Below, in pieces: positions 4,434 to 41,561 of a DNA stretch of 62,181 nt. Made by a program: the position numbers and the translations under genes. The notes beneath the pieces are model-generated. The model was not told where the DNA came from and ran no database searches. It saw only the letters and a list, made by a program, of their open reading frames with translations. Source of the stretch: Blastococcus sp. (GTDB lineage Bacteria > Actinomycetota > Actinomycetes > Mycobacteriales > Geodermatophilaceae); NCBI GenBank assembly GCA_025965715.1, contig JAOPWJ010000136.1:1-62181 (forward strand), in the 5' to 3' direction. Position 1 is the stretch's first letter. Every line of letters starts with the position of its first letter.

Positions 4434-4448
4434 TGTATCAATTATCCA
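4434..4448. promoter_or_regulatory. GntR-type operator copy a (8/8 match)
   Basis: TGTATCAATTATCCA fits TGNAT-N5-ATNCA perfectly. It lies 56 bp upstream of the LLM gene that begins the 4378-17 operon. A TATAAT-like hexamer (GATAAT on the minus strand) lies inside the site, so binding would cover the promoter. Assignment to the GntR protein at 40824 is inference from the same palindrome in front of that gene. Confidence 0.7.
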
Positions 4449-4472
4449 AGGCAACGAGGCGTAGCCCTCCGT

Positions 4473-4940
4473 TCAGGCCACACCGAGCCTCTCGCGCAGC
4501 GCGGCTACGTGGCCCGTCGGCTTGACGTCGTAGTCGACGTGCGACACGCGGCCCTCGCCGTCCACGACGACGGTGGATCGGATGACCCCCATGACGGTCT
4601 TCCCATCCTTGACCTTCTCGCCGTAGGCGCCCCAGGCCGACAGCACGGCGCGGTCCTGATCGGAGGCCAGGGGAAAGTTCAGCCCCTCCTGGGCGGCGAA
4701 GTCGGCCAGCCGGTCCACCGGATCCGGGGAGATGCCGACGACGCGGTAACCGGCTCCCTGCAATGCGGAGAGCGAGTCCCGGAAGTCGCAGGCCTCTGTG
4801 GTGCATCCGGGAGTCATCGCGGCAGGGTAGAAGTACACGACGACCGACTCCCCGCGAAGGGCGGACAGCGAGACGCTCCCGCCGTCCCCAGTCGGGAGTT
4901 CGAAGTCCGGTGCGAGCTCGCCAACGGTCAGGCGGGGCAT
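4473..4940 (-). CDS. bcp: Peroxiredoxin, BCP/PrxQ family
   Basis: 155 aa thiol peroxidase. The peroxidatic cysteine is in MTPGCTTEACDF (C46) with the resolving cysteine five residues on (C51), the atypical 2-Cys PrxQ arrangement. Start ATG at 4940 follows GGAGAG; a longer open frame overlaps tctB and is not used. It is the last gene after cupin-tctC-tctA-tctB, 31 bp after tctB, and may be read through from them. A peroxide-detoxifying role would fit a pathway with flavin and molybdenum oxidases that release H2O2, but this is inference; bcp is also an ordinary housekeeping gene. Confidence 0.85.
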   Translation of the reverse strand: MPRLTVGELAPDFELPTGDGGSVSLSALRGESVVVYFYPAAMTPGCTTEACDFRDSLSALQGAGYRVVGISPDPVDRLADFAAQEGLNFPLASDQDRAVLSAWGAYGEKVKDGKTVMGVIRSTVVVDGEGRVSHVDYDVKPTGHVAALRERLGVA

Positions 4941-4971
4941 ATCTCTCCTCGAGAGCAGGGGGCGTGGATGT

Positions 4972-5529
4972 TCAAAAGAGGTAGCCGTCGAGCGCCGGCA
5001 TCTCGATGACGATGACGACCAGGAGGTAGACCGCCCCGGCGGCGAGCAGGCCGGCGGCCAGGGCGACGAGCAGCCGCTCACGAGCTACCAGCAGGAACGC
5101 GGAGATCAGGATGCCGGTCGTCAGAACGAAACCGACCATCAGGGCACCGACGTAGAACAGGATGCTGAACAGTGCGATCTCGATGAATCGACGCCTGCGG
5201 ACCGAATCGAGGGCAAGCAGGACCCCGAAGCCTGACGTGGCCTCCTCCACTTGCTGAACACGCTCCTCCGCGTAGGCCAGCGGGTCGTCGCTGCTCGCCA
5301 GACCCTCGGCCGCCGTGGGCACCCCGCCCGGGCCCGAGGGGGCCGCAGACGCTCGGAACGAACGCACCTGCCCGACCATCTGGAGCAGCAGCGCCCCGCC
5401 CATGACCAGTGCGACGATCGTGGGGACCCGTCCGGCGTGGGAGGGATAGGACACCATCTGGAGGATGTACCAGGCAGTCCCGACGAGAAGCACCGCGGAC
5501 AGCCCTAACTGGAAGCGGCCCTCAGTCAT
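4972..5529 (-). CDS. tctB: Tripartite tricarboxylate transporter small membrane subunit TctB
   Basis: 185 aa, four hydrophobic segments (about residues 8-28, 37-55, 115-135, 145-175), the layout of the TctB small subunit of TTT-family secondary transporters. A hydrophilic loop of about 55 residues separates the two halves. The start overlaps the tctA stop by 4 bp (ATGA), giving translational coupling as usual for this pair. Works with TctA in the membrane and the lipoprotein TctC outside it to import citrate-like, C4-dicarboxylate or aromatic carboxylate substrates. Confidence 0.85.
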   Translation of the reverse strand: MTEGRFQLGLSAVLLVGTAWYILQMVSYPSHAGRVPTIVALVMGGALLLQMVGQVRSFRASAAPSGPGGVPTAAEGLASSDDPLAYAEERVQQVEEATSGFGVLLALDSVRRRRFIEIALFSILFYVGALMVGFVLTTGILISAFLLVARERLLVALAAGLLAAGAVYLLVVIVIEMPALDGYLF

Positions 5530-7073
5530 CGTGTCTCCACAGCTGCCGTCGGGACGGCGGTGGGCTCAGCGCCACCGCCAGGGGGCTTGCGCCGGTTCGG
5601 TAGGAGCCGTTTGACCAACGGCCACGCCAGGACGAGCACGACGAGCGCGCCCACCCCGATGGGAATGGGGCGTAGGAGGAAGCCGGCACCGAACACCTGC
5701 AGCGACAAGCCCAGGTTCTGATCGATGATGGGCCCGAGGATGAACCCCAGGATGAGGCCGGCGCTGGAGTATCCGGTCGCCTTGAAGACATAGCCGACGA
5801 ATCCGAAGACGAGCGCGATGATGATGCTCAGCGGCAGGCGCGAGTCGATGAAGCTGCCGATCAGCGAGACCGCGATCAATGCCGGCGCGAGCAGCTGTGG
5901 TCGCAGAAACGCCAGCTTCGACAACACCGGAGCCAGCGCAATGCCCATCACACTGCACAGGATGTTGCTCAGAGCCATCACCCAGGCGATGAGGAAGACG
6001 ATGTCCAGGTGGTTGTTGATCATGTCGGGGCCAGGCGTGAATCCCATGATCAACAAGATCACGATGACCAGTGCCATACCGGAGGACCCAGGCACACCGA
6101 ACGCCAAGGTCGGGACGAACGAGCCGCCCTCCTTGGCATTGTTCGCCGACTCCGGCGCCAGCACCCCCACCGGGTTGCCCTTCCCGAAGGAATCGGGATC
6201 CTTGGAGGTCTTCTTCGCCAGGGCGTAGGCGCCGAACATGCCCAGCGTCCCACCCACACCGGGCACCACTCCGGCGATCGCGCCGATTGTGCCGCCCTGG
6301 AGGATCATCCTCCAGTTCCGGATTCCGTCCATGACGCCGTCGAGAACCCGCGAGCCCTTGGCGGTGGAACGGGAGGCGGGCATGTTGCCTGCGATGGCAA
6401 CGCCCCGCGTGTAGATCGCAAACATCTCGGCGAGAGCGAAGAGGCCCATCGTCATCGCCGTGACACCGAGACCGCTGGTCAGCTCGAGGTTGCCGAAGGT
6501 CAGGCGACTGATCCCCGTTACCGGGTCCAGCCCGATGAAGGAGAGCATGAGGCCGAGTCCACCCGAGATGACGCCCTTGAGGCGGGTGTCCGCGTCGGAG
6601 ACGGACATGACCAGGATCCCCAGGACGCCGAGCACGAAGACCTCGGGGGATCGGATGTAGGTCATGATCTGCAGAGCGATCGGGATCGTGAGGACCAGGA
6701 CGATGACGCCGAACAGCCCACCAAAAGCACTGGCCGCCGCGGAGACCCCCAGCGCCCGGCCGGCCTGGCCCTTGCGAGCCATCGGGTAGCCGTCGAACGT
6801 GGTGACGACCTGCTCGCCCGTCCCCGGAACCCCGAAGAGGATGGCAGTGATGGAACCACCGAACGAAACGGCACCGTAGGCCCCGAGGATGAAGGACAAG
6901 CCCGGCGCCGGCTCCATGCCGATGATCAAGGGGGTCAGCAGCGCCAGTGTGGCGAGGCCCCCGAGCCCGGGCAGGAAGCCGATCACGAGGCCAATGGCCA
7001 TACCGATGGTCAGGTAGAGCAATGACTCCGGCTGCAGAACCAGCAGCAGCCCGTCGAGTACCGAGTGGCCCAT
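5526..7073 (-). CDS. tctA: Tripartite tricarboxylate transporter large membrane subunit TctA
   Basis: 515 aa, about 11-12 membrane segments. It carries the duplicated signature loops of TctA: GFLPGLGGLATLALLTPL near residue 31 and VVPGVGGTLGMFGAYALA near 270, plus GVLAPESANNAKEGGSFVPT and FGVPGSSGMALV. Channel subunit of a sodium- or proton-driven binding-protein-dependent importer. The gene follows tctC after a 102-bp gap that contains a strong hairpin, and overlaps tctB. C-terminal tail is Pro/Ala-rich and cytoplasmic. Confidence 0.93.
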   Translation of the reverse strand: MGHSVLDGLLLVLQPESLLYLTIGMAIGLVIGFLPGLGGLATLALLTPLIIGMEPAPGLSFILGAYGAVSFGGSITAILFGVPGTGEQVVTTFDGYPMARKGQAGRALGVSAAASAFGGLFGVIVLVLTIPIALQIMTYIRSPEVFVLGVLGILVMSVSDADTRLKGVISGGLGLMLSFIGLDPVTGISRLTFGNLELTSGLGVTAMTMGLFALAEMFAIYTRGVAIAGNMPASRSTAKGSRVLDGVMDGIRNWRMILQGGTIGAIAGVVPGVGGTLGMFGAYALAKKTSKDPDSFGKGNPVGVLAPESANNAKEGGSFVPTLAFGVPGSSGMALVIVILLIMGFTPGPDMINNHLDIVFLIAWVMALSNILCSVMGIALAPVLSKLAFLRPQLLAPALIAVSLIGSFIDSRLPLSIIIALVFGFVGYVFKATGYSSAGLILGFILGPIIDQNLGLSLQVFGAGFLLRPIPIGVGALVVLVLAWPLVKRLLPNRRKPPGGGAEPTAVPTAAVETR

Positions 7074-7137
7074 CCAGGAACTCCCTCACGATTTACGGCT
7101 CAGCCCCGAACGGCGGCGCGCCGGCCACTTGGTCAAG

Positions 7138-7169
7138 GTGTGGGGCCCCGGTTGCCCGGGGCCCCACAC
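7138..7169. terminator. Strong intercistronic hairpin between tctC and tctA
   Basis: Perfect 14-bp inverted repeat, GTGTGGGGCCCCGG and its complement, around a 4-nt loop (7152-7155), seven bases after the tctC stop. There is no U-run. In binding-protein operons such hairpins commonly protect the 3' end of the binding-protein mRNA or attenuate read-through, so that the binding protein is made in excess over the membrane parts. Confidence 0.7.
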
Positions 7170-7175
7170 CGTCGA

Positions 7176-8240
7176 TCAGCCTTCCTTCAGGACACCCCGC
7201 AGCGCGTCCGCGGAGCCGCTGACCTCCTTGACGAGACTGACCGTCTCCTCCCGCGGCAGCGGGTTCACCGGATAGCCGGCCTCTTCCATGTCCGAGGCGT
7301 AACCGCTGTCGTTGGCCGCGGTATTAATCGCGTCCGCCAAACAGTTGGTGACACCCTCATCCATTCCCGGCGGCCCGACCACCACGCGCTCCAGGTCGTA
7401 CACCGACGCCAGAGCCGTCAACACCGCGGCCTGGTCGCCCTCGCCGAAGTCCGTGATCACCGGTGTGTCGGGCAGATCCGGCAGCGGTTCGTTGCTGATG
7501 GCCACGATCGGATTGGCGTTGGAACCCTTCACGATCTCCACACCGGAACCGCCGGAGTTGATCGACGCGTCGACCTCCCCGACCAGGAGTGCGGCGTCCG
7601 CCTCACCACTTCCGGGGTAGCCACCGATGATCTTGTTGGGGAACTCGAAGACGTTGGCCAGTGCAACCGCCACGTAGTAAGCGTCCGAGCCGACGCCGCC
7701 GATGCCGAACTTCACCGGCTCCTCGGCGTTGACGATCGAGTCGAAGTCCTTGTACTGCGAATCCGGACCGGTGTACACCAGCGGCGGCAGTGCGCCGAGC
7801 CTGCCGAGGAAGGTCCACTTCGTGTTGTCGAACGTGGCGCCCTCTTGCCCGGTGAGCTCCGCGAACGTCGTCCCGGGGAAGTTGATCAGGCCGATGGTGT
7901 AGTCGGAGGGATCACTCTGGTAGACCTCGTTGGCGCCGATGAGACCGCCACCGCCGGGCTTGTTCTCCACGGTGACCTCGACGCCGTCGAGCTCCTTCTC
8001 GAGGTGCGGCTGGAGCAGCCGGATGAACTGGTCGAAGCCGCCGCCGGGGTTGTAGGGCACAACCACCGTGAGCGTCTCACCGTCGAGTGACGCGCACGGG
8101 TCGCCGCCCGCCGCACTGCTGCCACCGGCGGCGGGCTCGTCACCCAGGCCACCCGAGCCGCCGCAGGCGGCGAGCAGAACGCTCGCCGCCGCGGCGGCAA
8201 CCGCGGTCGTGGCTTGCCGCTTGACGTGCTGGGCACGCAT
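7176..8240 (-). CDS. tctC: TctC substrate-binding lipoprotein (first copy)
   Basis: 354 aa. Lipoprotein signal: basic start MRAQHVKRQ, hydrophobic run, lipobox SVLLAACGGSG (Cys near 23), then a low-complexity Gly/Ser/Ala linker. Family motifs are VVPYNPGGGFDQFIR, PGGGGLIGANEVYQ and KFGIGGVGSDAYY, as in Bug/TctC receptors that clamp carboxylate ligands. Start chosen at 8240 after GAAGCGAGGACC, the same leader that precedes the paralogue at 11922. Sits between the cupin (47 bp upstream) and tctAB. Clearly related to the orphan binding protein at 10861 over its whole length. Confidence 0.92.
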   Translation of the reverse strand: MRAQHVKRQATTAVAAAAASVLLAACGGSGGLGDEPAAGGSSAAGGDPCASLDGETLTVVVPYNPGGGFDQFIRLLQPHLEKELDGVEVTVENKPGGGGLIGANEVYQSDPSDYTIGLINFPGTTFAELTGQEGATFDNTKWTFLGRLGALPPLVYTGPDSQYKDFDSIVNAEEPVKFGIGGVGSDAYYVAVALANVFEFPNKIIGGYPGSGEADAALLVGEVDASINSGGSGVEIVKGSNANPIVAISNEPLPDLPDTPVITDFGEGDQAAVLTALASVYDLERVVVGPPGMDEGVTNCLADAINTAANDSGYASDMEEAGYPVNPLPREETVSLVKEVSGSADALRGVLKEG

Positions 8241-8286
8241 AGGTCCTCGCTTCATAGTCATGAGTGGGGTCGTGCCCGGCAACGTC

Positions 8287-8817
8287 TCAGGCCTGCTTGT
8301 TCTCGGGGAATCGCTCGATTGCGTGCAGCCCGAGCGCCTTGATCGCGAAGGTGTCCTGGATGGCCAGGTAACGGCAGGACTCGGTGTCGCTGTCGTTGAA
8401 GTGCTGGTGCCACATCCAGACCGGGAACGAGAACATGTCGCCCTCTTCCCAGTCGATGCGCTCCTCGTTGATCCCGTCCCAGCTGATGACCGAGTGCCCG
8501 ACACCGGAGACGATGTAGATCACGGCCTCGGTGGTGTGCCGGTGGTTGACCGACGCACCCTGGGGCGGCAGCTCGCTGACGTGCGGCTGCAGGCGGATGT
8601 CGTGGCCCAGACGGTAGAACCGCGCCTTGGTGTTCCGGAACTCGCGGGGCGTCAGCTCCGTGGTCTTCAGGTTCTTGACCAGGACCGCCTCGTGCGGCGG
8701 GTTCTTCTTGTTCCAGACCTCACGCGGGCCCATCTCGCTGTTGTAGGCCGTACTGAGCGGCTGCTCGCGCTTCTCGATGTTCGCGAGCTCGGGCGTCCTC
8801 TTTGCGACTTCGGTCAT
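8287..8817 (-). CDS. Single-domain cupin protein (gentisate-dioxygenase-like fold)
   Basis: 176 aa. Cupin motif 1 is GASVNHRHTTEAVIYIVSG with the metal-ligand set His-x-His and Glu. Motif 2 is GDMFSFPVWMWHQHFN with the fourth ligand His. The N-terminal 80 residues include the ARFYRLGHDIRLQPHVSEL stretch seen in small relatives of gentisate 1,2-dioxygenases. A metal-dependent dioxygenase, isomerase or aminohydrolase role is possible; the sequence does not decide. First gene of the operon cupin-tctC-tctA-tctB(-bcp), behind an operator-overlapped promoter. Confidence 0.8.
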   Translation of the reverse strand: MTEVAKRTPELANIEKREQPLSTAYNSEMGPREVWNKKNPPHEAVLVKNLKTTELTPREFRNTKARFYRLGHDIRLQPHVSELPPQGASVNHRHTTEAVIYIVSGVGHSVISWDGINEERIDWEEGDMFSFPVWMWHQHFNDSDTESCRYLAIQDTFAIKALGLHAIERFPENKQA

Positions 8818-8913: not shown

Positions 8914-8941
8914 AGGATACTTGATACAAAGGCCGGGTCAA
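8914..8941 (-). promoter_or_regulatory. Promoter with GntR-type operator copy b
   Basis: On the minus strand: -35 TTGACC (8936-8941), 16-bp spacer, -10 TATCCT (8914-8919). The palindrome TGTATCAAGTATCCT (8914-8928, 7/8 match) covers the spacer and -10. It would start transcription about 90 bp upstream of the cupin ATG at 8817. The spacing from -35 to operator (7 nt) is the same as at 11997-12024. Confidence 0.65.
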
Positions 8942-9011: not shown

Positions 9012-10775
9012 CTACCGGTCGGCCTGACAGACGACGTCGACGAGCGCCGGTTGCCCCGTGTCGGCGATGACCTTGATCGCTTCGGCGACAGCGGGGCCGA
9101 TGTCCTCTGGCCGGTGGACCGGCCCGACCCCGTGCCATCCCATGGACCGTGCCAGGCCGCCGAAGTCCGGCGCCGGGTCCTCGATCGTGATGCCGATCGC
9201 GGCGTTCTCCACCGGGTTGCCCCGCTCGCGCGCCATCGTCTTCTGGTGGCTCCAGTCGTTGTTGTAGGCGCGGTTGTTCACCATGACGGCCAGCATCGGG
9301 ATCCGGTGGTGGGCCGCGACCCACAGCGCGCCGGCGTCGAACATCAGGTCGCCGTCCGGCTGCAGGTCCACGACCAGCCGACCGCTGCCACGGTGCGCCA
9401 GTGCCACCCCGAGCGAGATGCCGATCTGGGTCGCGGTGCCGAGGCTGCGCCCGACATGGCGGTACGGCCGGTCGAAGTCCCACAGCTTGGGAGCCCAGCC
9501 GTTGCCCGTGCCGGCCGTCAGCACCCAGTCGTGCCCCTCGAGCGCGTGGCCGACCTCGAGCACGAGCCGTGCGGTCGACATCGGTTCTCCCTCGACGTGA
9601 CGCTCGGCGGTGGCTCGCCACCCGTCTCGCCGGCTGCGGAGACCGTCCGCCAGCCGGCTCCGCCGCTCGGCCCGCGAGTCGTCGCGCCCGTCCCCGGCCA
9701 CGAGCCGGGTGCACTCCTCGAGGAGTAGCGGCAGCGCGAGCGTGGCGTCGGCCGGCACCCGGATGTCCGCCCGGAAGGCGCTCCCGTAATGGGCCGACCA
9801 TGCCGGGATGCCAAGGTCGCCGAAGCCGATCTCGAGGACCATCGCCCCGGGGGCAACGTGCGGTTGGTCGCCGCGAACCTCCTTCGTCATCAGGTGCGTG
9901 TGTTGGCCGACGTCCTTGATGTCCAACAGGAGGAGCGCGTCAGCGGCCGTCACCTCCTCCGGCGCGCCGGTGATGTTCAGCGGGTGGCTGCTCGGGAAGT
10001 TGTGCCGCATGTTCGTGTCGACCACCCCGGCGCCGAGCAGCTCGGCGAGCTGCACGAGTAGGGGCCAGGTGGCCGGATCACGCCCGAGGTAACCGGCGAC
10101 GAGCACCGGTCGCTCGGCCCGGCAGAGGGCTTCGGCCACCGCCCGCAGGGCGGTCGGGTCCGGTCCGAGGCGGATCGGCGGCGCGTCGCCCGTGACGGGC
10201 GACGGGCGTGGCCCCTCGATCACCTGTTCCTGCAGGTCGGCATCGAGCGCGATGTAGACGGGCCCCTGGGGGTGGGACGTGGCGATGCGGTACCCGCGGT
10301 GCAGGGAGTCCGGCATGGCCGCGACCGAGAAGGGATGGTCGTCCCACTTGGTGTATTCGCGGACGGCAGTGTTCTGCACGTTCGCGGTGTGCACCCAGTC
10401 GATCCACGGACGGCGACGCGCCTGGTCCATCGGACCGGCTCCCCCGAGGATCACCATCGGCGCCCGGTCGACGTGGGCGTAGTAGACGCCCATCGTGCCG
10501 TGCAACAGCCCGACCAGGTCGTGGAGGACGACGCCCATGGCGCGTCCGGTCGCCTTGGCGTAACCGTGCGCAATGCCGACCGCGACCTTCTCGTGCGGGA
10601 CCAGGATGATCTCGGGCTTGTTGCCGCCGTAGTTGACGATCGAGTCGTGCAGGCCGCGGAAGGACGCGCCTGGGTTGATCGCGAGAAACGGGATCGCCTG
10701 CGCCTGCAGGATGTCGACGACCAGGTCGGAGCCGTGGTACGCCCCGGAGGAGTCGGACGAGGACGTTTCTTCCAT
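9012..10775 (-). CDS. Thiamine-diphosphate-dependent enzyme (decarboxylase/acetolactate-synthase-like)
   Basis: 587 aa with the three-domain plan of the POX/decarboxylase group. N-terminal Pyr domain: catalytic Glu in VPHEKVAVGIAHGYAKATG near residue 65. Central domain: about 195-330. C-terminal PP domain: the DGD...N motif QPDGDLMF, then VMVNNRAYNN, which binds Mg-ThDP. It resembles benzoylformate-decarboxylase-like annotated acetolactate synthases; anabolic ALS is unlikely as no small subunit follows. Probably decarboxylates or condenses a 2-oxo acid of the pathway. Second gene of a two-gene unit behind an orphan TctC (85-bp gap). Confidence 0.85.
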   Translation of the reverse strand: MEETSSSDSSGAYHGSDLVVDILQAQAIPFLAINPGASFRGLHDSIVNYGGNKPEIILVPHEKVAVGIAHGYAKATGRAMGVVLHDLVGLLHGTMGVYYAHVDRAPMVILGGAGPMDQARRRPWIDWVHTANVQNTAVREYTKWDDHPFSVAAMPDSLHRGYRIATSHPQGPVYIALDADLQEQVIEGPRPSPVTGDAPPIRLGPDPTALRAVAEALCRAERPVLVAGYLGRDPATWPLLVQLAELLGAGVVDTNMRHNFPSSHPLNITGAPEEVTAADALLLLDIKDVGQHTHLMTKEVRGDQPHVAPGAMVLEIGFGDLGIPAWSAHYGSAFRADIRVPADATLALPLLLEECTRLVAGDGRDDSRAERRSRLADGLRSRRDGWRATAERHVEGEPMSTARLVLEVGHALEGHDWVLTAGTGNGWAPKLWDFDRPYRHVGRSLGTATQIGISLGVALAHRGSGRLVVDLQPDGDLMFDAGALWVAAHHRIPMLAVMVNNRAYNNDWSHQKTMARERGNPVENAAIGITIEDPAPDFGGLARSMGWHGVGPVHRPEDIGPAVAEAIKVIADTGQPALVDVVCQADR

Positions 10776-10860
10776 GGCATCTCCCTGGGACGAGGTGGGG
10801 CGACGGCGGAGCGGCCGGCCCGGGCGGCGACGGGGGACCCCCGCCGGCGAGCGGGCTACC

Positions 10861-11922: not shown

Positions 11923-11996
11923 GGTCCTCGCTTCGTCGAGAGAGTCTGGCCGACATCTGGATGCCAGCCGGCCCCTGCGGTACCTCCTGGAGATGA

Positions 11997-12024
11997 AACA
12001 TACTGAATACAACGACGCCGTCAA
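11997..12024 (-). promoter_or_regulatory. Promoter with GntR-type operator copy c
   Basis: Minus strand: -35 TTGACG (12019-12024), 16-bp spacer, -10 TATGTT (11997-12002). The degenerate palindrome TGTATTCAGTATGTT (11997-12011, 6/8) starts 7 nt after the -35, in the same phase as copy b. It drives the tctC-ThDP pair, whose start is 75 bp downstream. Confidence 0.6.
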
Positions 12025-15416: not shown

Positions 15417-15444
15417 GAGTGGACTCCTTTTTCGCCGGCATCGG

Positions 15445-32773: not shown

Positions 32774-32808
32774 GTCGCGTCCTTAATCATGCAGGGGTGA
32801 GATGCGGG

Positions 32809-32921
32809 GAGGTACGTGTGCGAGGTACGTGTGCGAGGTACGTGTGCGAGGTACGTGTGCGAGGTACCCGTGCGAGCTACGCGTACGAGATACCGGTGCG
32901 AGGTGCGCGTACGAGGTGCGG
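32809..32921. repeat. 13-bp tandem repeat array upstream of tctC
   Basis: About 8.7 units of GAGGTACGTGTGC. The first four (32809-32860) are identical; the next four (32861-32912) drift, keeping GAG-TAC or GTGC/GTAC ends, followed by a 9-base partial unit. Starts 36 bp upstream of the tctC ATG, so it lies in its leader or promoter. Frames across it give only repetitive peptide. Each unit carries GTAC and an ACACGTAC core on the minus strand. Confidence 0.9.
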
Positions 32922-33010
32922 TCGGTGCCGATGCGACACCACGGCGTGGCATACGCCGCGCCTGCCTGGGTCCGGGCCGGTTGACCCGGCGGATGGGGTG
33001 GGAACTCCCT

Positions 33011-34081: not shown

Positions 34082-34096
34082 TGTATCACTTATCCA
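34082..34096. promoter_or_regulatory. GntR-type operator copy h (8/8 match)
   Basis: TGTATCACTTATCCA, 49 bp upstream of the LLM gene at 33011-34033. A TTGACC (minus strand, 34115-34120) lies 18 bp further upstream. The rest of the 328-bp gap up to the hairpin at 34323 holds nothing I recognise. Confidence 0.7.
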
Positions 34097-34361: not shown

Positions 34362-36674
34362 TCACGCTGGCGGGTCGGAGTCCTCCAGGTCGTTCAGCAG
34401 CCGCCACACCCGCTCGGGTGTGAGCGGCAGCCGGTTCGGCCACCGACCGACGGCTCGCGCAACGGCGGCAGCCACCGCCCCGCCGATGGGGTTGAGCTGC
34501 CCCTCCCCCGCACCCTTGGCGCCGTACGGGCCGATGCCGTCGCGGCGTTCGGCCAGCACCAGGTCGATCTTGCGCGGCATGTCGGTCACCCGAGGCACGC
34601 GGTAGTCGACCATGTTCGCGTTGGCCAGCTGCGGCCCGTCGTAGACGAGTTCCTCGTACAGCGCGCCGCCGAGACCCTGCGTCGCCGCGCCGAGATCCTG
34701 GCCCTCGACCGCCTGCGGGTTGATGGCGAACCCGATGTCGGCGACGGTCACGAGCTGATCCACCGTCACCACCCCCGTCTCGGGGTCCACCTCCACCGCA
34801 ACGCCGACCATGCCGGTCTCCCAGAACGGTGGCATCTCCTGGGTCACGCCCTCCCGGCGCAGGAGGCCGATCCCCGTGACCTCCCCGGCGGTGCCGCCGA
34901 ACCACTTACGGACAACCTCTCCGTAGGCCAGCTTGGCGCCCTCGGGTCCCTGGACTGCGCCCGGCAGGTCGATGACCTCGTCAGGAGTGCAGCTCCAGAT
35001 CTCGGCGGCCATGTCGCGGATCCTCGTTCGCGCGTCGGCGCACGCCCGCTGCAGCGCCAAACCGACCAGCGTGGACGTGCGACTGGCCCCGGTCGTGCGC
35101 TCGTAGGGCGTGACGGACGTGTCGGACTGGACGACGGAGACGACACCGAGGTCGACGCCCAGCTCCTCGGCCGCAACCTGCGACAGCAGCGATTGGCTGC
35201 CCTGCCCCATCTCGGTCGATCCGCTGAAGACGATGACGGAACCGTCGAACTGGATGCGTACCTGCGCGGTCGAGATGGGATACGCCCCGGCATCGGAGGC
35301 TGAGCAGCTGACCCCCATCCCGTAGTAGGGAGTGTCCTTGCGGTCGCGCTCGAGGGACGACGCTGCGATCTCCAGGTCTGCCAGCAGGTCCGCGTCGATC
35401 CCGCGCTTGCCCGGCAGGATGGCCTCGCCGTGCCGTACCAGGTTTCGCCGACGGATCTCCGCGCCGTCCAGCCCCAACTGCTCCGCGGCCTGGTCCAGAT
35501 TCGTCTCGGCGGCGAAGTTTCCCTGCGGGGCGCCGAAACCGCGGTAGGACGAGGCCGGCGCCGTGTTGGTGTAGAGCGACCGTCCACGAACACGAAGGTT
35601 CGGGACCCGGTACGGGCCGAAGGACCGGTTCACGCACTTGGCCAGCACCAGAGGGCTGTTGTCGGCGTAGGCCCCCGAGTCCATGACGATGTCGATCTCG
35701 CGCGCCAGGATGTGCCCCTCCGCGTCGAAGCTGCTCCGCACGTGGATGTCGGCGGTGTCCACCCGTGTCGTGTAGATGGCTTCTTCCACCGACAGCACGA
35801 GCTTGACCGGCCGGCCCACCATCCATGACGCGACCGACGCGAGGGGCTCGACCTTGGTGTAGGACTTCGAGCCATAGCCGCCGCCGATGTAGGGCGTGGA
35901 GACACGCACCCTGGACAGCGGCAGGTCGAAGATGCGCGCCAGGTCGTCGCGGACCATGTACGGGTGCTGGGCGCTGCTCACCACCGAGAGCGCGCCGTCG
36001 ACGTAGGACGCGACAGCGTTGTACGGCTCCATCCCGTAGGCGTAGAGCATCGGGTAGTGCACGGTGCTCTCCACGACCAGGTGCGCACCCGCCCTGGCGG
36101 CGTCCACGTCGCCCCACTCCAGGTCGACCTCGTGCGCGACGTTGGTGCGGGCGCCCTCCGCCTCCGGGAACTCCATGGTGTGCTTCTTGCCGGTGAGGCT
36201 CTTGAAGCTGTCGTCCCCGGTGGCGTCGTAGGCCTGCTCGTGCACCAGGGGAGCCCCCTCGGCGAGAGCGGCGGCTGCCGTCATGACCGAGGGCAGATCC
36301 TCGTACTCCACCCGCACCAGGCGCATCGCGTCAGACGCGGCGCCCAGCGTCTCCGCAAGGACGATCGCCACCGGCTCGCCGAAGTACCGGACCTTGTCCG
36401 GCGCCAGGATGAAGTGGTCGGCGATGATGTGGCCGAACCGCGGGAACAACGGCTCCAGGTCGGCGGCGGTGACCACCGCCACGACGTCGGGCGCGGCCAG
36501 CGCCTCCGTGGCATCGATCGACAGGATCCGCGCGTGCGCGCGGTCGGACCGGACCACCTTGGCATGCAGCATGCCGGGCATCGTCACGTCGACCGTGTAC
36601 TCCGCGGATCCGGTCACCTTCTCGACGAGATCCCGCCGGCGGACCGAGGTGCCGACGGTGCTGAACTCAGTCAC
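34362..36674 (-). CDS. Molybdenum hydroxylase large subunit, second system
   Basis: 770 aa, normal length. Landmarks: KVTGSAEYTVDVTMPGML, GEPVAIVLAET, the molybdopterin loop YIGGGYGSKSY, SSYRGFGAPQGNFAAE (RxFGxPQ as in xanthine dehydrogenase and nicotinate-type enzymes), GSTEMGQGSQSLLSQ and the catalytic-glutamate loop YGAKGAGEGQLNPIGGA near 735. GTG start at 36674 overlaps the small-subunit stop (GTGA). No AYRCSFR loop, so not CO dehydrogenase. Closer to the XdhA/HcrA-like branch than the short large subunit at 20049. Confidence 0.92.
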   Translation of the reverse strand: MTEFSTVGTSVRRRDLVEKVTGSAEYTVDVTMPGMLHAKVVRSDRAHARILSIDATEALAAPDVVAVVTAADLEPLFPRFGHIIADHFILAPDKVRYFGEPVAIVLAETLGAASDAMRLVRVEYEDLPSVMTAAAALAEGAPLVHEQAYDATGDDSFKSLTGKKHTMEFPEAEGARTNVAHEVDLEWGDVDAARAGAHLVVESTVHYPMLYAYGMEPYNAVASYVDGALSVVSSAQHPYMVRDDLARIFDLPLSRVRVSTPYIGGGYGSKSYTKVEPLASVASWMVGRPVKLVLSVEEAIYTTRVDTADIHVRSSFDAEGHILAREIDIVMDSGAYADNSPLVLAKCVNRSFGPYRVPNLRVRGRSLYTNTAPASSYRGFGAPQGNFAAETNLDQAAEQLGLDGAEIRRRNLVRHGEAILPGKRGIDADLLADLEIAASSLERDRKDTPYYGMGVSCSASDAGAYPISTAQVRIQFDGSVIVFSGSTEMGQGSQSLLSQVAAEELGVDLGVVSVVQSDTSVTPYERTTGASRTSTLVGLALQRACADARTRIRDMAAEIWSCTPDEVIDLPGAVQGPEGAKLAYGEVVRKWFGGTAGEVTGIGLLRREGVTQEMPPFWETGMVGVAVEVDPETGVVTVDQLVTVADIGFAINPQAVEGQDLGAATQGLGGALYEELVYDGPQLANANMVDYRVPRVTDMPRKIDLVLAERRDGIGPYGAKGAGEGQLNPIGGAVAAAVARAVGRWPNRLPLTPERVWRLLNDLEDSDPPA

Positions 36675-37165
36675 TTCGCCTCCGCACGTTGCTGCCTCGC
36701 GACGGACTCCACAGCCTCCACGATCGGCCGGTAGCCGGTGCAGCGGCAGATGTTGCCCTCGAGATGTTCGACGATCTCTTCGCGCTCGGCACCGGGGTTG
36801 GCGTCGAGCAGGCCCTTGGCCATCATGAGGAAGCCGGGCGTACAGAACCCGCACTGCAGCGCGTGGCAGTCGACGAATGCCTCCTGCAGCGGGTGCAACT
36901 TCCCACCGGAGGAGAGGCTCTCCACCGTGGTCACCGAACGACCGTCCGCGTCGACCGTGAGGTAGGTGCAGGAGCTCACCGGCCGCCCGTCGACCAGCAC
37001 GGTGCACACCCCGCACACCTGGAGCTCGCAGCTCACCTTCGTGCCGGTCAGTGCGAGGTCACTCCGGAGGAAGTCGATCAACAGCGAGCGCGACTCCACG
37101 GTGCGCTCGACCGTGGTCCCGTTCACCTCGACACTGATCGCGAACTCGGTCCTCGGCTCTGCCAT
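36671..37165 (-). CDS. Molybdenum hydroxylase small [2Fe-2S] subunit, second system
   Basis: 164 aa. Cluster 1 ligands in CELQVCGVCTVLVDG, cluster 2 in CGFC (110-113) and CRC (in GNICRCTGYRP). The first cluster loop reads C-ELQV-C instead of the common C-xxGx-C, a modest variation. Lies between the medium-subunit gene (4 bp upstream) and the large-subunit gene (4-bp overlap). Confidence 0.93.
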   Translation of the reverse strand: MAEPRTEFAISVEVNGTTVERTVESRSLLIDFLRSDLALTGTKVSCELQVCGVCTVLVDGRPVSSCTYLTVDADGRSVTTVESLSSGGKLHPLQEAFVDCHALQCGFCTPGFLMMAKGLLDANPGAEREEIVEHLEGNICRCTGYRPIVEAVESVARQQRAEAK

Positions 37166-37169
37166 GGGT

Positions 37170-37973
37170 TCAGCTCCCCCTGCTCATGAGTGCGTCGACC
37201 GCGCGACGGACGTACACGCCGGTCACGTGCCGCTTGTACCTCTCGGACCCGGTGAGGTCCGGAGTCGGGTCAACTTCGCTCGCGATCGTGTCAGCGTCGA
37301 TCTCGTCAGGCGCGGCGAAGGTCCAGACCGCGGGAACCTCTCCCACCGCACCGACGACGACACGGCATGCGCCGGTCTCCGGCTCGTGCGCGATGGCGAC
37401 GCCGAGCGTCGGCCGCTCCATGATCTGGTACTTCACGTACTCCGCTCGGACCTCGGGGCCCCCGAGCGGGATGCGGACATCGACGAGCAACTCGTCGGGC
37501 TCCTTGGCGGAGTAGTACGGGCCGGCGATGAACTCCTCCACCGACAGCGCACGCCGTCCACCCGGCGAGACCAGGGTGGCGACCGCCTGGAACGCGATCA
37601 GAGCGGTGCCGACGTCCGACTTGGGTTCGGCGAAGCAGAGGTTGCCGCCGATGGAGCCCTGGTTACGAACCCGGGCGTTGCCCACCGCCCGCTCCACCGC
37701 GGCCAGCATCGGCACGTGCTCGCGGACCAGCGGGTGCTCGGCGACGCGATCATGGCGCTCGGTGGCGCCGATGACGAGATCGTTGCCGTCGAGCCGGATG
37801 CCGGCCAGCTCAGGCAACCGCTTGACGTCGACCAGCACGTCCGGGCGATGCAGGCCGGCACCCATCGCGAGCAGCAATTCGGTGCCACCGCAGTACGGGA
37901 CCTGGTCCTCACCGATGGCATCCAGCGCCTCGTCGAGGGTTTTCGGACGGGCCAGGCGGAAGGGAGGCAGCAT
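37170..37973 (-). CDS. Molybdenum hydroxylase medium FAD subunit, second system
   Basis: 267 aa. CGGTELLLAMGAGLHRPD is the FAD pyrophosphate loop; NARVRNQGSIGGNLCFAEPK (here 20 residues at about 98-117) is the second FAD motif. Shares one base with the coxG-like stop/start junction at 37973. Gene order is coxG-medium-small-large, unlike small-medium-large at 18662. Confidence 0.92.
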   Translation of the reverse strand: MLPPFRLARPKTLDEALDAIGEDQVPYCGGTELLLAMGAGLHRPDVLVDVKRLPELAGIRLDGNDLVIGATERHDRVAEHPLVREHVPMLAAVERAVGNARVRNQGSIGGNLCFAEPKSDVGTALIAFQAVATLVSPGGRRALSVEEFIAGPYYSAKEPDELLVDVRIPLGGPEVRAEYVKYQIMERPTLGVAIAHEPETGACRVVVGAVGEVPAVWTFAAPDEIDADTIASEVDPTPDLTGSERYKRHVTGVYVRRAVDALMSRGS

Positions 37974-38455
37974 CAGACTGCCTTCCCGAGGGCCGACTCG
38001 GCGGCGGCGAAGAACTCGGCCATGATCTTGTCGGCCTTCTTGTTGATCGTGCCACTTCCCATGCTGGCGGCCCGGCCCGTCACCTCGTAGGCGCCGGAGA
38101 ACCGGGCAAGCGAACCGTCGGGATCCCGCGGCTCGATCTCCATCGTGGCCTCGATGACCAGGCGGGACCCGACCTGTCGGTCCTCGCCCGAGGCCTTGAA
38201 GGTGATGGAGCTGCCCGGGACCAGATCCGTGACGACGATGTCGAGGTCTGCCCGAAGCTTGAACGGACCGAGCCGGTCCATCAGCACGGCGGAGTAACGA
38301 CCGAGGGGCTCGATCTCCGACGCGTCCTCGACGACGCTCACCCAGCTAACGAGGAGCGGCACATCAGTGAGGCTCGTCCACGCCTGTTCGGGCGAGGACG
38401 GCAAGATCAGTTCCCGGCGGAACTCGCTGCGAGGCACGGGATCTCCCATCTCCAA
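37973..38455 (-). CDS. CoxG-like SRPBCC protein
   Basis: 160 aa of the CoxG/START-like fold: FRRELILPSSPEQAWTSLTD at the N-terminus, SAVLMDRLGPFKLRADLDI mid-way and GSGTINKKADKIMAEFF at the C-terminus, all typical of CoxG beside CO-dehydrogenase-type Mo enzymes. CoxG is thought to recruit the enzyme to the membrane or help maturation. First gene of the four-gene Mo hydroxylase operon. The start ATG at 38455 could equally be the ATG two codons later. Confidence 0.85.
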   Translation of the reverse strand: MEMGDPVPRSEFRRELILPSSPEQAWTSLTDVPLLVSWVSVVEDASEIEPLGRYSAVLMDRLGPFKLRADLDIVVTDLVPGSSITFKASGEDRQVGSRLVIEATMEIEPRDPDGSLARFSGAYEVTGRAASMGSGTINKKADKIMAEFFAAAESALGKAV

Positions 38456-38485
38456 GGCGACCCAGGGCCGCTCGTCGCGTTACCT

Positions 38486-38500
38486 GGATACTTGATACGG
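38486..38500. promoter_or_regulatory. GntR-type operator copy i (7/8 match)
   Basis: TGGATACTTGATACG, 31 bp upstream of the coxG-like start. Its core GGATACTTGATAC is identical to copy b (8915-8927), 29.6 kb away. Confidence 0.65.
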
Positions 38501-38595: not shown

Positions 38596-39312
38596 TCATC
38601 CAGCCATGTCTCTCGAGGAGGGCCCGACCGTGGCGAGAACCTCTCCGAGGAGCCGGGACGTATGCGGGCCCACACCGTCGGCCGACGCCCTGGCGAGATC
38701 GCCGAGCGTATCGACGTCCCGACGAAGCGACGTGCCTCGGCGCAGTTGCAGGGGGGTCGACCCGCCGAGGCGGTGCGCCTCCGAGGAGGCCGGTCCATAC
38801 GCCGGCACGTAGGGCGCACCCGGGAGCGCCGCGAGCAGGGTCGTTCCTCCACCGGAGGCGTCCGCGACGAAGGACCGGGGGTGCCGCCCAGCGCGGGCCA
38901 GCGCCTCGGAGAGGTCGGCCGACCGCAACGCAGGTACGTCCGCCATGAGACTGGCGAAGCCCGACCCCGGCGACACCGCACGGACGTGTGAGCACTCTGC
39001 AGCGAGGACCTCGTTGAGGCCGCCGTCCTCCGGGTCGCGCACCACCTGACAACCGAGCCGGTCGAACGCCTGAGCAGCGATGTCGTCGGCGCAGACGACA
39101 CGCACGGCGGAGACGGCCGGGCATCCCAGCACGGCTTCCGCCGTGTCCAGGGCCATGGCCAAGGCCAGCGACCCGCGCAGATCGGGAGGCAGGAGGACCC
39201 GGGACTTCGCCCGCTGCAACCTCTTGAGCGGCAGCGTCAGGACCCAGGTCCCCGACCAGGCTGCCGTCGATACCTGTCCAGCGGTCACCCCGTCGACGTC
39301 CTCAGAGCTCAC
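38596..39312 (-). CDS. fbiD: CofC/FbiD-like guanylyltransferase of coenzyme F420 synthesis
   Basis: 238 aa. Motifs in order: LTLPLKRLQRAKSR (CofC VKPLxxAKSRL), GGLNEVLAAECSHV, SLMADVPALRSADLSEAL (metal Asp), DASGGGTTLLAALPG, YGPASSEAHRLGGS and SLRRDVDTLGDL. This order is that of CofC/FbiD, which couples GTP to phosphoenolpyruvate or 2-phospholactate at the first committed step of F420 synthesis. MobA-like Mo-cofactor nucleotidyltransferases lack the LxPLKxLxxAKSR opening. GTG start at 39312 overlaps the aspartase gene by 11 bp. Other fbi genes are not in the window, so this may be a second, pathway-linked copy. Confidence 0.85.
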   Translation of the reverse strand: MSSEDVDGVTAGQVSTAAWSGTWVLTLPLKRLQRAKSRVLLPPDLRGSLALAMALDTAEAVLGCPAVSAVRVVCADDIAAQAFDRLGCQVVRDPEDGGLNEVLAAECSHVRAVSPGSGFASLMADVPALRSADLSEALARAGRHPRSFVADASGGGTTLLAALPGAPYVPAYGPASSEAHRLGGSTPLQLRRGTSLRRDVDTLGDLARASADGVGPHTSRLLGEVLATVGPSSRDMAG

Positions 39313-40750
39313 GTCGGGACGGCATGGTTCCGGGCGTGGAACTGATCGCAGCGACCGGCGGCGCCACCATCCCCTCGGGCCGAAGCAAGCGGTCGAGCAC
39401 GGCCGCTTCCACCAGTCCCCACTCGGTCACGACGTCGTACACGCTTCGGCCGGTGGCGAGCGCCTCGTCCGCGACACGAGCGGCGGCGGCATAGCCGATG
39501 AGGGGGTTCAGCGCGGTCACCAGGCCGATGGACCGTTCGACCGAGGATCGGAGCACCTCGGTGTTCGCGGTGATCCCGCGGACGCAGCGGCGCGCGAGCA
39601 CCTCGCAGGCGGCACGGAGGTGGGTGAGCCCTTCGAAAAGGCTGTGCACGATCAGCGGCTCGAACGCGTTGAGCTGCAGCTGCCCGCCCTCGGCCGCGAG
39701 AGTGATGGCGACGTCGTTGCCGATGACCTCGAAGGCCACCTGGTTGACCACCTCCGGGATCACCGGATTGACCTTGCCCGGCATGATGCTGGAGCCGGCC
39801 TGCACGGGCGGGAGATTGATCTCGTTGAAACCCGCGCGGGGGCCGGAGGAGAGCAGCCGCAGATCGTTGCACACCTTCGACAACTTCACCGCGATCCGCT
39901 TGAGCACCCCCGAGAGCTGGACGAATGCGCCGACGTCCTGGGTCGCCTCGACGAGGTTCACGGCTGGGACCACAGGGATCCCGGTGATCTCGGCCAGACG
40001 GCGGCACACCAGCGCCGAGTAGCCGGCCGGTGCGTTCAAGCCCGTGCCGATCGCGGTGCCCCCCAGATTGACCTCGAGGATCAGCGCCTCGGCCTCTGCG
40101 AGCCGCTCCCGGTCCTCCTCCAGCATGACGCTGTACGTGCCGAACTCCTGTCCCAGCGTCATCGGAACGGCGTCCTGGAGCTGCGTCCGGCCCATCTTCA
40201 CGATGTCGGCGAATTCGAGGCTCTTCGCGGCGAAGGCCTGCCCGAGCACCTCCATCGCCTCGAGCAGCCGCTCGATGGCGAACCGGAGCGCAAGCTTGGC
40301 GGCGGTCGGGTAGACGTCGTTGGTGCTCTGCCCCTTGTTGACATGGTCCAGCGGATGCACCACGGCGTAGTCGCCCCGCGGACGGCCCAGGTGTTCCAGT
40401 GCCCGGTTGGCGATGACCTCGTTCGCGTTCATGTTGGTGGAGGTGCCGGCCCCACCCTGGAACACGTCCACGATGAACTCGCGGTGGAACTTGCCCGACC
40501 GAATCTCTTCACAGGCCAAGGTGATGGCGCCAGCCGTGGCTTCGTCGAGAAGACCCAGCTCGAGGTTCGCCTGAGCCGCCGCCTGCTTGACGCAGGCGAG
40601 GGCGACGATCAGATCGGGATACGTCGAGATGGGGGTGCCACTGATGGGAAAGTTCTCGGCGGCGCGAAGGGTGTGCACCCCGTAGTAGGCGGACACCGGA
40701 ACATGCCGGTCGCCGAGGAGATCGTGCTCGAGTCGTTGCCCAGGGACCAT
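39302..40750 (-). CDS. aspA: Aspartate ammonia-lyase
   Basis: 482 aa, aspartase/fumarase superfamily. Opens HDLLGDRHVPVSAYYGVHTL (as AspA), with QGGAGTSTNMNANEVIANR, VNKGQSTNDVYPTA, and the superfamily signature GSSIMPGKVNPVIPE at about 325. Converts aspartate to fumarate and ammonia. ATG at 40750 is used: an upstream ATG at 40777 would put promoter and operator inside the gene. It may finish the pathway (aspartate or an aspartate-like product to fumarate) or act on a related amino acid. Lies 73 bp after gntR and overlaps fbiD. Confidence 0.88.
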   Translation of the reverse strand: MVPGQRLEHDLLGDRHVPVSAYYGVHTLRAAENFPISGTPISTYPDLIVALACVKQAAAQANLELGLLDEATAGAITLACEEIRSGKFHREFIVDVFQGGAGTSTNMNANEVIANRALEHLGRPRGDYAVVHPLDHVNKGQSTNDVYPTAAKLALRFAIERLLEAMEVLGQAFAAKSLEFADIVKMGRTQLQDAVPMTLGQEFGTYSVMLEEDRERLAEAEALILEVNLGGTAIGTGLNAPAGYSALVCRRLAEITGIPVVPAVNLVEATQDVGAFVQLSGVLKRIAVKLSKVCNDLRLLSSGPRAGFNEINLPPVQAGSSIMPGKVNPVIPEVVNQVAFEVIGNDVAITLAAEGGQLQLNAFEPLIVHSLFEGLTHLRAACEVLARRCVRGITANTEVLRSSVERSIGLVTALNPLIGYAAAARVADEALATGRSVYDVVTEWGLVEAAVLDRLLRPEGMVAPPVAAISSTPGTMPSRREL

Positions 40751-40754: not shown

Positions 40755-40785
40755 CGGATAATATATCCATTAACCATGTCGTCAA
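40755..40785 (-). promoter_or_regulatory. aspA promoter with GntR-type operator copy j; probable leaderless start
   Basis: Minus strand: -35 TTGACG (40780-40785), 16-bp spacer, -10 TATTAT (40758-40763). The palindrome TGGATATATTATCCG (40755-40769, 7/8) covers the -10. The expected start point falls at 40750-40751, the A of the aspA ATG, so the mRNA would have no leader. Confidence 0.65.
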
Positions 40786-40823
40786 CGACTTCCGCTCCGG
40801 CGTCCGCCCCGCGTGCCGTGCCG

Positions 40824-41519
40824 TCAGGCAGGCAGCTCGTCCGCGTCCGGAACCAGGTGCTGGAGCTTGTCGCTGACCCGGCGCAGATGGTTTTCGAGCC
40901 ATGCCCGACCACCGGGAGCGTCCCTCTTCCGGACGAAACCGAGGAGCCCGAAGTGCCCGGTGGCGCCCTCGTCCACGCGCTGGAGGAGCAGGTAGCGACC
41001 CACGGAGTCCCGAAGCTGTTCGACGAGCGCTTCCGCGCGCGGCCTGCCCGCCACCGCATAGAGCTCGTGATAGAACGTCCGGCGCGCAGTGAAACGCTCG
41101 GCCAGTTCCTCGGTGCCCTCCAGCCGGGCAGCCAGAACGTCGAGCCGTTCCAGGTCAGCGTCCGTGAGGCGCGCGATCGCCCGCTCGAGCAGGTAGGCCT
41201 CCAGCAGGATCCGCATCTCGTAGAGCTCGGCGATCTCCTCCCGGCGGAGCGCAGCGACGATCGCGCCGCGATGGGGACGGATGTCGAGGAGCCCTTCGGC
41301 CTCCAGCGGTCGGAGGCTGGCGCGGACCGGCATCCGGCTCACGCCCAGCGCGGCGGCGATCTCGTCCTGGGGCAACCGCTCCCCCGGACGGAAGACCCCG
41401 CGCAGGATGGCTTGGCGAATGAACGACTCGGTCATTCCCTCCACGGTGTGGAACGACCCGCGGATGTCCCTGGCGACCTCTTGGAGCTCGTCCAGCCGCT
41501 CCTGTTTGGCCTTCGGCAT
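40824..41519 (-). CDS. GntR-family transcriptional regulator, FadR/FCD subfamily
   Basis: 231 aa. Winged helix at about 20-85: IRQAILRGVFRPGERLPQDE, LGVSRMPVRASLRPLEAEGL, PHRGAIVAALR. FCD ligand domain follows (LYEMRILLEAYLLERAIARL, then RRTFYHELYAVAGRPRAEAL and HLRRVSDKL), whose Asp/His residues bind a metal and a carboxylate effector. Start ATG at 41519. A perfect palindrome lies 28 bp upstream, pointing to autoregulation. First gene of gntR-aspA-fbiD. Proposed local regulator of the whole accessory region, since it is the only transcription factor found there. Confidence 0.9.
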   Translation of the reverse strand: MPKAKQERLDELQEVARDIRGSFHTVEGMTESFIRQAILRGVFRPGERLPQDEIAAALGVSRMPVRASLRPLEAEGLLDIRPHRGAIVAALRREEIAELYEMRILLEAYLLERAIARLTDADLERLDVLAARLEGTEELAERFTARRTFYHELYAVAGRPRAEALVEQLRDSVGRYLLLQRVDEGATGHFGLLGFVRKRDAPGGRAWLENHLRRVSDKLQHLVPDADELPA

Positions 41520-41546
41520 TCTTTGTCCTCGTCGTTCGTCGGCGTC

Positions 41547-41561
41547 TGTATCCAGTATGCA
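41547..41561. promoter_or_regulatory. GntR-type operator copy k (8/8 match), before gntR
   Basis: TGTATCCAGTATGCA, the most symmetric copy (only positions 3, 6, 10, 13 and the centre break symmetry). 28 bp upstream of the gntR start. It is the last copy seen; none occurs in the housekeeping half. Confidence 0.75.

Follow-up and report, generated by a model that had tools for sequence, protein, structure and literature searches.

Regulators of the FadR/FCD branch of the GntR family (FadR, PdhR, LldR, GlcC) combine a winged helix-turn-helix with an FCD domain and act at palindromic, A/T-rich operators at target promoters, with a site before their own gene. Extra half-sites about 7 bp away also belong to this pattern, according to PMC4494728. 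The same features recur in the stretch considered here, a 62,181-nt contig of a Blastococcus sp. (JAOPWJ010000136.1; "the window" below is this whole stretch), in which a block of about 41 kb, made up of genes for degradation and transport, is very probably controlled as a whole by a single GntR-family switch protein. The candidate operator is a short repeated element, TGNAT-N5-ATNCA, and the proposed binder is a 231-aa FCD-type GntR protein encoded near the right end of the block. Catabolic operons under FCD-GntR control are familiar; for the operator pattern seen here, a substitution in the recognition helix and the island-wide layout, no description was found in the open-licence literature, among the matches listed.

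The window GntR matches the Pfam GntR (8.7e-17) and FCD (3.4e-14) models, both above curated cut-offs, and the solved structures that match it best belong to GntR-family regulators. No other regulator above a Pfam cut-off was seen in the island frames tested. The island cupins match gentisate, aminosalicylate or nitrosalicylate dioxygenases and no regulators, except for weak matches to the sugar-binding half of an AraC-type protein. The best NCBIfam match of the window GntR is of the PhnR type (TIGR03338, phnR_burk; 7.9e-17), but at 61.6 bits against a cut-off of 271.5 it is not a member of that group. PhnR systems go with a 2-aminoethylphosphonate-type ABC transporter, and the island has a PotA/PhnT-like ATPase, which falls below its cut-offs; no phosphonate-cleaving enzyme was recognised among the genes tested.

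Operator copies in the window and in its genome

The original prediction, made from the letters of the window, was that eleven copies of the palindrome define a GntR regulon over this accessory region. Four perfect (8/8) copies were claimed and are found exactly where they were placed, at 4434, 24079, 34082 and 41547. This is far above expectation (0.15 per window), and none of 100 dinucleotide shuffles contained four. Four 7/8 copies had been listed as well; those at 8914, 18461 and 40755 were correctly placed, and the fourth exists, at 38485 rather than 38486. Two more 7/8 copies (4802 and 20184), absent from that list, are both within coding sequence, leaving eight of ten window copies of at least 7/8 intergenic. 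At least ten copies with no more than one mismatch occurred in 3 of 100 shuffles, which makes the 7/8 class, taken alone, no more than moderately unusual. Matches at 6/8 number 43 in the window and carry no meaning by themselves. Three of them (11997, 18589, 25394) had been singled out.

All window positions were then ranked with a matrix built from 14 distinct sequences of 20 sites in other genomes. Ten of the listed sites take ranks 1–7, 9, 10 and 12, with ranks 8 and 11 overlapping the sites at 40755 and 18461. The training sites had themselves been found by motif likeness, so the independent part of this result is where they lie, not how they look. By this measure the 6/8 copies at 25394 (rank 5) and 11997 (rank 10) are borne out, while 18589 (rank 19, with 11.4 such scores expected) is not. 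Overall, ten of the eleven listed sites stand up; 18589 is weak when taken on its own.

The eleven sites had also been described as intergenic and close upstream of a transcription unit. This holds after correction of start codons and fails for the mechanical open frames as listed, because several of these begin upstream of the probable start. The corrected starts, all in frame, are ATG at 4378 (LLM2), 34033 (LLM3) and 40750 (AspA), and GTG at 24054 (isochorismatase-family gene). Distances from site to start are then 55 bp (4434), 96 (8914), 24 (24079), 48 (34082), 29 (38485), 4 (40755) and 27 (41547). The eleven sites head eleven predicted transcription units, gntR included, from the left contig end to gntR (0–41.6 kb), with operon limits drawn from strand and spacing. 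They are listed here with their matrix ranks (no strand is assigned to the sites).

4434..4448: operator, TGTATCAATTATCCA, upstream of LLM2-hydrolase-amidohydrolase-LLM1; rank 1
8914..8928: operator over the likely -10 of cupin1-TctC-TctA; invariant together with TTGAC in five genomes; rank 4
11997..12011: operator upstream of TctC2 and a thiamine pyrophosphate (TPP) enzyme; TTGAC box 16 bp before the -10-like half; rank 10
18461..18475: operator upstream of the ABC uptake operon (substrate-binding protein (SBP)-permease-ATPase-MFS-hydrolase); rank 12, 1.1 such expected
18589..18603: weak candidate, 58 bp ahead of the plus-strand genes coxS-coxM-coxL; rank 19
24079..24093: operator upstream of the isochorismatase-family amidohydrolase gene; ortholog sites in G740, G619, G602 and G271; rank 2
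25394..25408: operator in the gap separating two divergent genes, MFS (minus) and cupin dioxygenase-like (plus); rank 5
34082..34096: operator upstream of LLM3-TctC-TctAB-MFS-MFS; site also at the LLM3 ortholog of G271; rank 3
38485..38499: operator before coxG-coxM-coxS-coxL, matched in position by a site at the coxG ortholog of G271; rank 6
40755..40769: operator before aspA-cofC, 4 bp from the probable aspA start; a third half-site overlaps it at 40762; ranks 9 and 8
41547..41561: operator, predicted autoregulation, TGTATCCAGTATGCA, 27 bp before the gntR ATG; rank 7
40824..41519, minus strand: gntR, the proposed binder; recognition helix LGVSRMPVRASL

Placed in a common orientation, the sites read TGTATC-N3-TATCCA, that is, a pseudopalindrome rather than a true palindrome. 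This refined form, with at most one mismatch, has six occurrences in the assembly (80% complete; 3,548,584 bases on 263 contigs), every one of them in the window (4434, 34082, 8914, 24079, 38485 and 41547), which makes up 1.75% of the sequence. The best-consensus sites are thus not dispersed over the genome. The perfect TGNAT-N5-ATNCA palindrome is found at seven places, four of them in the window, against none for a reversed-pattern control. The remaining three are on contigs C157 (within a hydantoinase-B gene), C105 (within listed open frames) and C163, where it is 55 bp upstream of another LLM gene, plausibly a further target outside the window. The K/M-restricted form of the palindrome, one mismatch allowed, matches 26 places in the genome, of which eight lie in the window. 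Two-mismatch places outside the window are on C23, C66, C89, C152, C157, C163, C171 and C217; those on C23, C66, C157 and C217 are within open frames of coding-like composition. A one-mismatch scan of the refined motif over 296 genomes (its own and relatives, 112 of them of its family) gave mostly zero to two matches, and this genome is the only one of the 112 family members with more than two.

The arrangement, with sites before the regulator and its targets and few elsewhere, is that of an autoregulated local regulon.

The regulon and its regulator in other genomes

No close ortholog of the window GntR was found in 60 sampled relatives (best 87 bits, 33% identity), and a scan of named genomes for close relatives of it gave two loci only, at 31 and 33% identity. 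Among the 20 matches listed from plasmid records, identity did not exceed 29.5% for LLM1 relatives or 39.3% for GntR relatives. LLM1 is carried by 16 of 394 sampled genomes of the class, this one included, from five families, and the other copies are 81–87% identical. The GntRs in these syntenic clusters are 50–57% identical to that of the window, and the gene order is shuffled.

Nine of the carriers, all of one genus (G602, G619, G634, G669, G688, G706, G724, G740, G778), share the order hydrolase-amidohydrolase-LLM1-CoxG-CoxM-CoxS-CoxL-GntR. They have orthologous genes and the same operator as the window, but in a different gene order. GntR follows CoxL there, at the end of the first gene run, whereas the window gntR has its own promoter region and site. 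In all nine, TGTATCAATTATCCA, the 15-mer of window position 4434, stands exactly in front of the hydrolase gene. Genome G271, from another family of the same order as the window, has most of the island, rearranged. The shared genes are 40–87% identical (mostly 59–87%; GntR 53%), and motif copies are upstream of CoxG, LLM3, an ABC operon, cupin1 and the isochorismatase.

Sites before orthologs of the island genes were counted when they matched the palindrome at 7/8 or better and the asymmetric form at 9/12 or better, within 300 bp. Genes below 40% identity and hits overlapping a better hit by at least 30% were dropped (which lost the window and G826 hydrolases), and sites inside over-long open frames (window isochorismatase and LLM3) went uncounted. 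On these terms sites precede cupin1 in 7/7 cases, the hydrolase in 11/11, the isochorismatase in 4/6, abh_x in 3/4, LLM2 in 3/4, SBP in 2/3, MFSa in 2/4, cupin2 in 2/4, MFS3 in 2/6, CoxG in 2/12, LLM3 in 1/2 and the ABC gene in 1/7. The two CoxG cases are the two genomes in which CoxG heads its unit. None precede LLM1 (0/16), the amidohydrolase (0/16), CoxL2, CoxM2 or CoxS (0/11 each), the TPP enzyme (0/6), or TctA1, TctC1, perm or AhpC (0/4 each); LLM1, the amidohydrolase and CoxL2 (0/43 together) are mostly internal to operons.

Outside aligned genes there are 72 sites in 412,029 bases, against 13 in 218,625 inside them. In a rule-based split that excludes the window and genes with no upstream neighbor, 33 of 74 first genes have a site compared with 5 of 87 internal genes; after collapsing by gene and lineage, the figures are 17/39 and 5/36 (p 0.006). 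Sites equally common in coding sequence had been named as a result that would speak against the regulon; instead they favor the starts of transcription units.

The motif was also recovered without being supplied. An expectation-maximization (EM) search of 27 upstream regions returned GAT-N5-ATMCAAA, which is this element with its A/T flanks, read in a shifted register; the score is at least 14 in 23 of the regions and below 0 in four operon-internal control regions. The regions were chosen knowing which held sites, so this demonstrates a common element, not its frequency. The aligned sites in three groups of genomes read TG[TG]AT-N5-AT[CA]CA, the pattern by which they had been picked. Of the 394 class genomes, 13 contain TGTATCANNTATCCW, a variant pattern made after the fact; ten of these are among the 16 LLM1 carriers and three among the remaining 378.

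In a tree of 74 GntRs, 15 of the 16 cluster GntRs form one clade (support 100/96), and the sixteenth, from G286, is elsewhere. As a control, 58 loci around weaker GntR matches (202,689 bases) hold one perfect palindrome and 16 places of at least 7/8. The clade is also marked in the recognition helix. The residue after VR is Ala (11) or Ser (4) in its members, and Glu (56) or Asp (2) in all 58 controls. This is the position of FadR Glu-50, for which Table 1 of PMC4494728 gives electrostatic bonds with Arg-35, Arg-45 and Arg-49. An acidic residue here is usual in the family, not formally defining, and 15 of 16 cluster GntRs have Ala or Ser. Loss of the Glu accompanies a changed operator, as a correlation along one clade.

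A second difference is at residue 150, in the FCD domain, where the "FH" of the family is mostly "FY" in the cluster GntRs. The His is Tyr in 15 of 16 aligned rows and is retained in 38 of the 44 controls showing the residue. FCD histidines have a metal-binding role, and the ligand site may differ from that of ordinary FCD proteins.

The link between GntR and the sites had rested on proximity; it is now seen to be co-conserved as well, since genomes with a close GntR carry the motif at orthologous promoters. Site placement, conservation across genomes and co-occurrence with the GntR clade all support the predicted regulon over the accessory region.

Two apparent relatives were set aside. In G286 a GntR gene follows closely on a 7/8 site and has two perfect palindromes in its vicinity, but its protein is outside the clade and has Glu in the helix. 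That genome had been picked for its sites, and it stays in alignment A1 and in the ortholog-promoter and first/internal counts. G280 has the identical 15-mer, with no GntR match in the 18 kb searched and only a distant LLM match, and was taken as chance.

More distant members of the clade (34–38% identity) are found beside variant sites at L126:9045-9772 (contig C25 of G271) and L165–L168 (G673 and G826). In G673 and G826 the variants have a TGGATCCA core (for example, TGGATCCAGAATCCA), often as three half-sites at 7-bp steps. This suggests that the operator may drift together with the regulator. A GntR relative beside an isochorismatase-ABC copy at L090:11073-11940 (contig C27 of G271) is interrupted by a stop, with operator-like sites kept at 6031, 12420 and 12890.

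Proposed mechanism and competing explanations

The motif, its placement, its conservation and its company with one GntR clade were established by computation. The explanation favored here, which is held to be highly likely, is that the FCD-GntR represses its own gene and the promoters of a catabolic island that moves horizontally; binding, repression, the ligand, the limits of the operons and the pathway are deductions. The operator of the GntR at 40824–41519 would be a 15-bp pseudopalindrome, TG[T/G]AT[C/A]-N3-[T/G]AT[C/A]CA, with A/T-rich flanks. A GntR dimer would bind it before the island transcription units (about 0–41.6 kb) and before its own gene, most likely repressing by blockage of RNA polymerase. 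Some small molecule would release the protein, probably a carboxylic acid serving as substrate or intermediate in the pathway. With operators carried by the individual units, gene order would be free to shuffle between genomes while co-regulation is kept.

Repression is suggested because the operator, where a TTGAC-type promoter is readable, covers the -10 or is near the transcription start. Across the cupin1 promoters of the window, G740, G634, G619 and G271, four runs are the longest to stay unchanged: TTGAC, TGTATC, TATCCT and GAAGAAG (likely the ribosome-binding region). TATCCT is 16 bases after TTGACN, which makes the right arm of the operator the likely -10 hexamer; at its last place T replaces the consensus A, apparently as a -10 hexamer requires. 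Where the identical 15-mer precedes the hydrolase (nine promoters), about 14 bases separate the end of the operator from the aligned start. Several sites show a third half-site at a step of 7 bases: 40755/40762 and 18461/18468 in the window, 34074/34081 in G826 and 9765/9772 in G271. This is consistent with the additional boxes reported for GntR-family sites in PMC4494728.

If this is right, a loose collection of LLM, molybdenum-hydroxylase, amidase and transporter genes of unknown purpose becomes a single defined regulon, with its regulator named and its operator pattern tested by computation. The substrate could then be sought as the compound that releases the regulator, and the operator together with the GntR clade could serve as a marker for further pathway members in other genomes. 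The clade would also offer an example of the way in which a GntR recognition helix may come to use another operator. The broader proposition, that the clade combines Ala or Ser in place of the helix-orienting Glu (FadR Glu-50) and a wide operator (TTTGKAT-N5-ATMCAAA) with a self-contained mobile catabolic island in which operators go unit by unit, units are reshuffled among families of the class with co-regulation kept and the regulon ends with the island, has roughly an even chance of holding.

A number of results weigh against the regulon as proposed. The motif lacks the usual GT-N2/3-AC core of the FadR subfamily. The site at 18589 is weak. The two-mismatch places on C89, C152 and C171 are intergenic or at a frame edge and could be targets or chance. 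One-mismatch matches are as numerous in some genomes of the same order (seven in G056, G196 and G271, six in G059 and G250), of which G271 alone was examined. Only one of 12 gntR orthologs has a site, gntR being elsewhere mostly in an operon behind the hydrolase site, and at gntR in G688 the EM search gives only a weaker match (16.1). Thirteen sites were counted inside aligned genes, and 41 of the 74 automatically called first genes have no site (11 of these 41 being gntR). G732 has a member of the GntR clade and no site of at least 7/8 near its gntR or LLM genes. The threshold, training sites, EM regions and TGTATCANNTATCCW pattern were all picked after the motif was known, and nine LLM1 carriers represent a single genus.

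Of the alternatives, the one that survives best, while still unlikely, is that GntR activates from these sites or works both ways, rather than being a simple repressor. FCD regulators that activate are known, and some sites are far from the start (that of cupin1 by 96 bp in the window and 110–117 bp before the aligned start in f34 genomes). Where a TTGAC box is readable, however, the operator overlaps the -10 or start region, as is usual for repression.

A less probable idea is that another factor encoded elsewhere, for instance of the IclR type, owns the sites and gntR is merely one of its targets. The operator does speak for this, and against an ordinary FCD regulator, in that TGNAT-N5-ATNCA has no TKGT-N2/3-ACMA core (central GT-N2/3-AC), the FadR-subfamily consensus in PMC4494728; the same paper gives NanR and BioR as exceptions. 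The IclR-type KdgR operator RWWGAAACGNCGTTTCAKKA has a similar geometry of two arms and a short spacer, with different arm sequences (PMC8222616), and a genome assembled to 80% completeness could have a distant regulator. Yet no IclR gene or domain was found among the island frames scanned with Pfam, and in the three families with the closest GntRs, site-bearing clusters have a member of the GntR clade. Its distant relatives in G271 (second copy), G673 and G826 are also beside sites of the same pattern.

Still more doubtful is a promoter element for an alternative sigma factor. The element is indeed at promoter distance and overlaps TATCCT-like -10 hexamers, but a sigma element would not be expected to be palindromic, and by eye its offset from the TTGAC box differs from site to site. 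The TGTATC arm points either way relative to the genes (4434, 34082 and 41547 against 8914, 11997, 24079 and 38485), which an operator would be expected to show but a promoter element would not.

That the sites are chance matches collected by eye, as the 43 places at 6/8 and the two 7/8 copies in coding sequence might suggest, is very unlikely for ten of the eleven (18589 excepted) and as a general account has next to no probability, given the shuffle counts, the 6/6 clustering genome-wide, the matrix ranks and the conservation at promoters of other genomes.

Island genes, a possible pathway and neighboring features

The predicted transcription units assigned to the candidate GntR operators, and the genes in them, are as follows.

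17..4378, minus: LLM2, alpha/beta hydrolase, cyclic amidohydrolase (dihydroorotase/hydantoinase type), LLM1
4473..8817, minus: cupin1, TctC, TctA, TctB-like (by position only, no Pfam hit), AhpC/TSA
9012..12024, minus: TctC2 (start codon uncertain), TPP enzyme
12065..18389, minus: SBP, fused permease, ABC ATPase, MFS, alpha/beta hydrolase
18662..22184, plus: molybdenum hydroxylase 1, coxS-coxM-coxL
23317..24054, minus: isochorismatase-family amidohydrolase; best solved match N-carbamoylsarcosine amidohydrolase
24153..26663, divergent: MFS (24153-25385, minus); cupin (25490-26164) and unknown protein (26154-26663), plus
26749..34033, minus: LLM3, TctC3, TctAB fusion, two MFS
34362..38455, minus: coxG, coxM, coxS (36671-37165), coxL (molybdenum hydroxylase 2)
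38596..40750, minus: aspartate ammonia-lyase-like lyase, CofC-type F420 guanylyltransferase

The two MFS genes and the Tct-fusion operon were said to lack a site, and they do have none of their own; yet they are downstream of LLM3 on the same strand, behind 34082, which would account for it. The order LLM3-TctC3-TctAB-MFSb is kept behind one site in G271.

Several of the enzymes can be placed by their matches. The best solved matches of CoxL2 are 4-hydroxybenzoyl-CoA reductase, 6-hydroxypseudooxynicotine dehydrogenase, CO dehydrogenase and quinoline oxidoreductase. The amidohydrolase is of the dihydroorotase/allantoinase/hydantoinase type, below cut-offs, and the lyase is above the PRK12273 aspartate ammonia-lyase cut-off and just under that of TIGR00839. 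LLM2, LLM3 and CofC are above F420-related cut-offs and LLM1 is below. Uptake would be by the Tct, ABC and MFS transporters, and ring attack by the LLM oxidoreductases, molybdenum hydroxylases and cupin dioxygenase-like proteins. The cyclic amidohydrolase would open cyclic amides, and the N-carbamoylsarcosine-amidohydrolase-like amidase would remove carbamoyl or amide groups. Together with the aspartase-like lyase, these suggest breakdown of a nitrogen-containing ring acid. Most of these enzymes would find a place in a route that starts from such an acid, passes by way of a cyclic amide and a carbamoyl compound and ends in an amino acid; this is offered tentatively as a possibility.

Contig C163, with its palindrome before an LLM gene, also carries an F420 gamma-glutamyl ligase (CofE; L009:7718-8581). 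With CofC at 38596-39312 in the window, the island may bring cofactor genes for its own LLM enzymes. Among the two-mismatch copies outside the window, that on C152 adjoins a MerR gene. The copy on C171 (L049:1501-1515) is between an amidohydrolase and a LysR gene, and that on C89 (L047:1501-1515) follows a TTGACA-like box before a gene of no known family; each could be a target or chance.

Core genes, tkt-tal-zwf-opcA among them, lie to the right of gntR, and the other-genome matrix gives no score there above that expected by chance. WhiA and OpcA serve as actinobacterial markers. The island stops directly before tkt-tal-zwf-opcA (41561-49122), and its right border may mark an insertion next to core genes of sugar-phosphate metabolism; on the left it runs to the contig end. 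A stretch of about 1.1 kb (22185-23316) separating coxL1 from the isochorismatase gene has no recognised gene and may be the remnant of a mobile element; a 110-aa frame there (22702-23034) has a weak HTH_23 match, below cut-off. The protein at 26154-26663 has no Pfam match and no solved relative. It is kept between the MFS gene and gntR in G602, G619, G634 and G740, and a 31% identical relative in G271 is beside cupin1.

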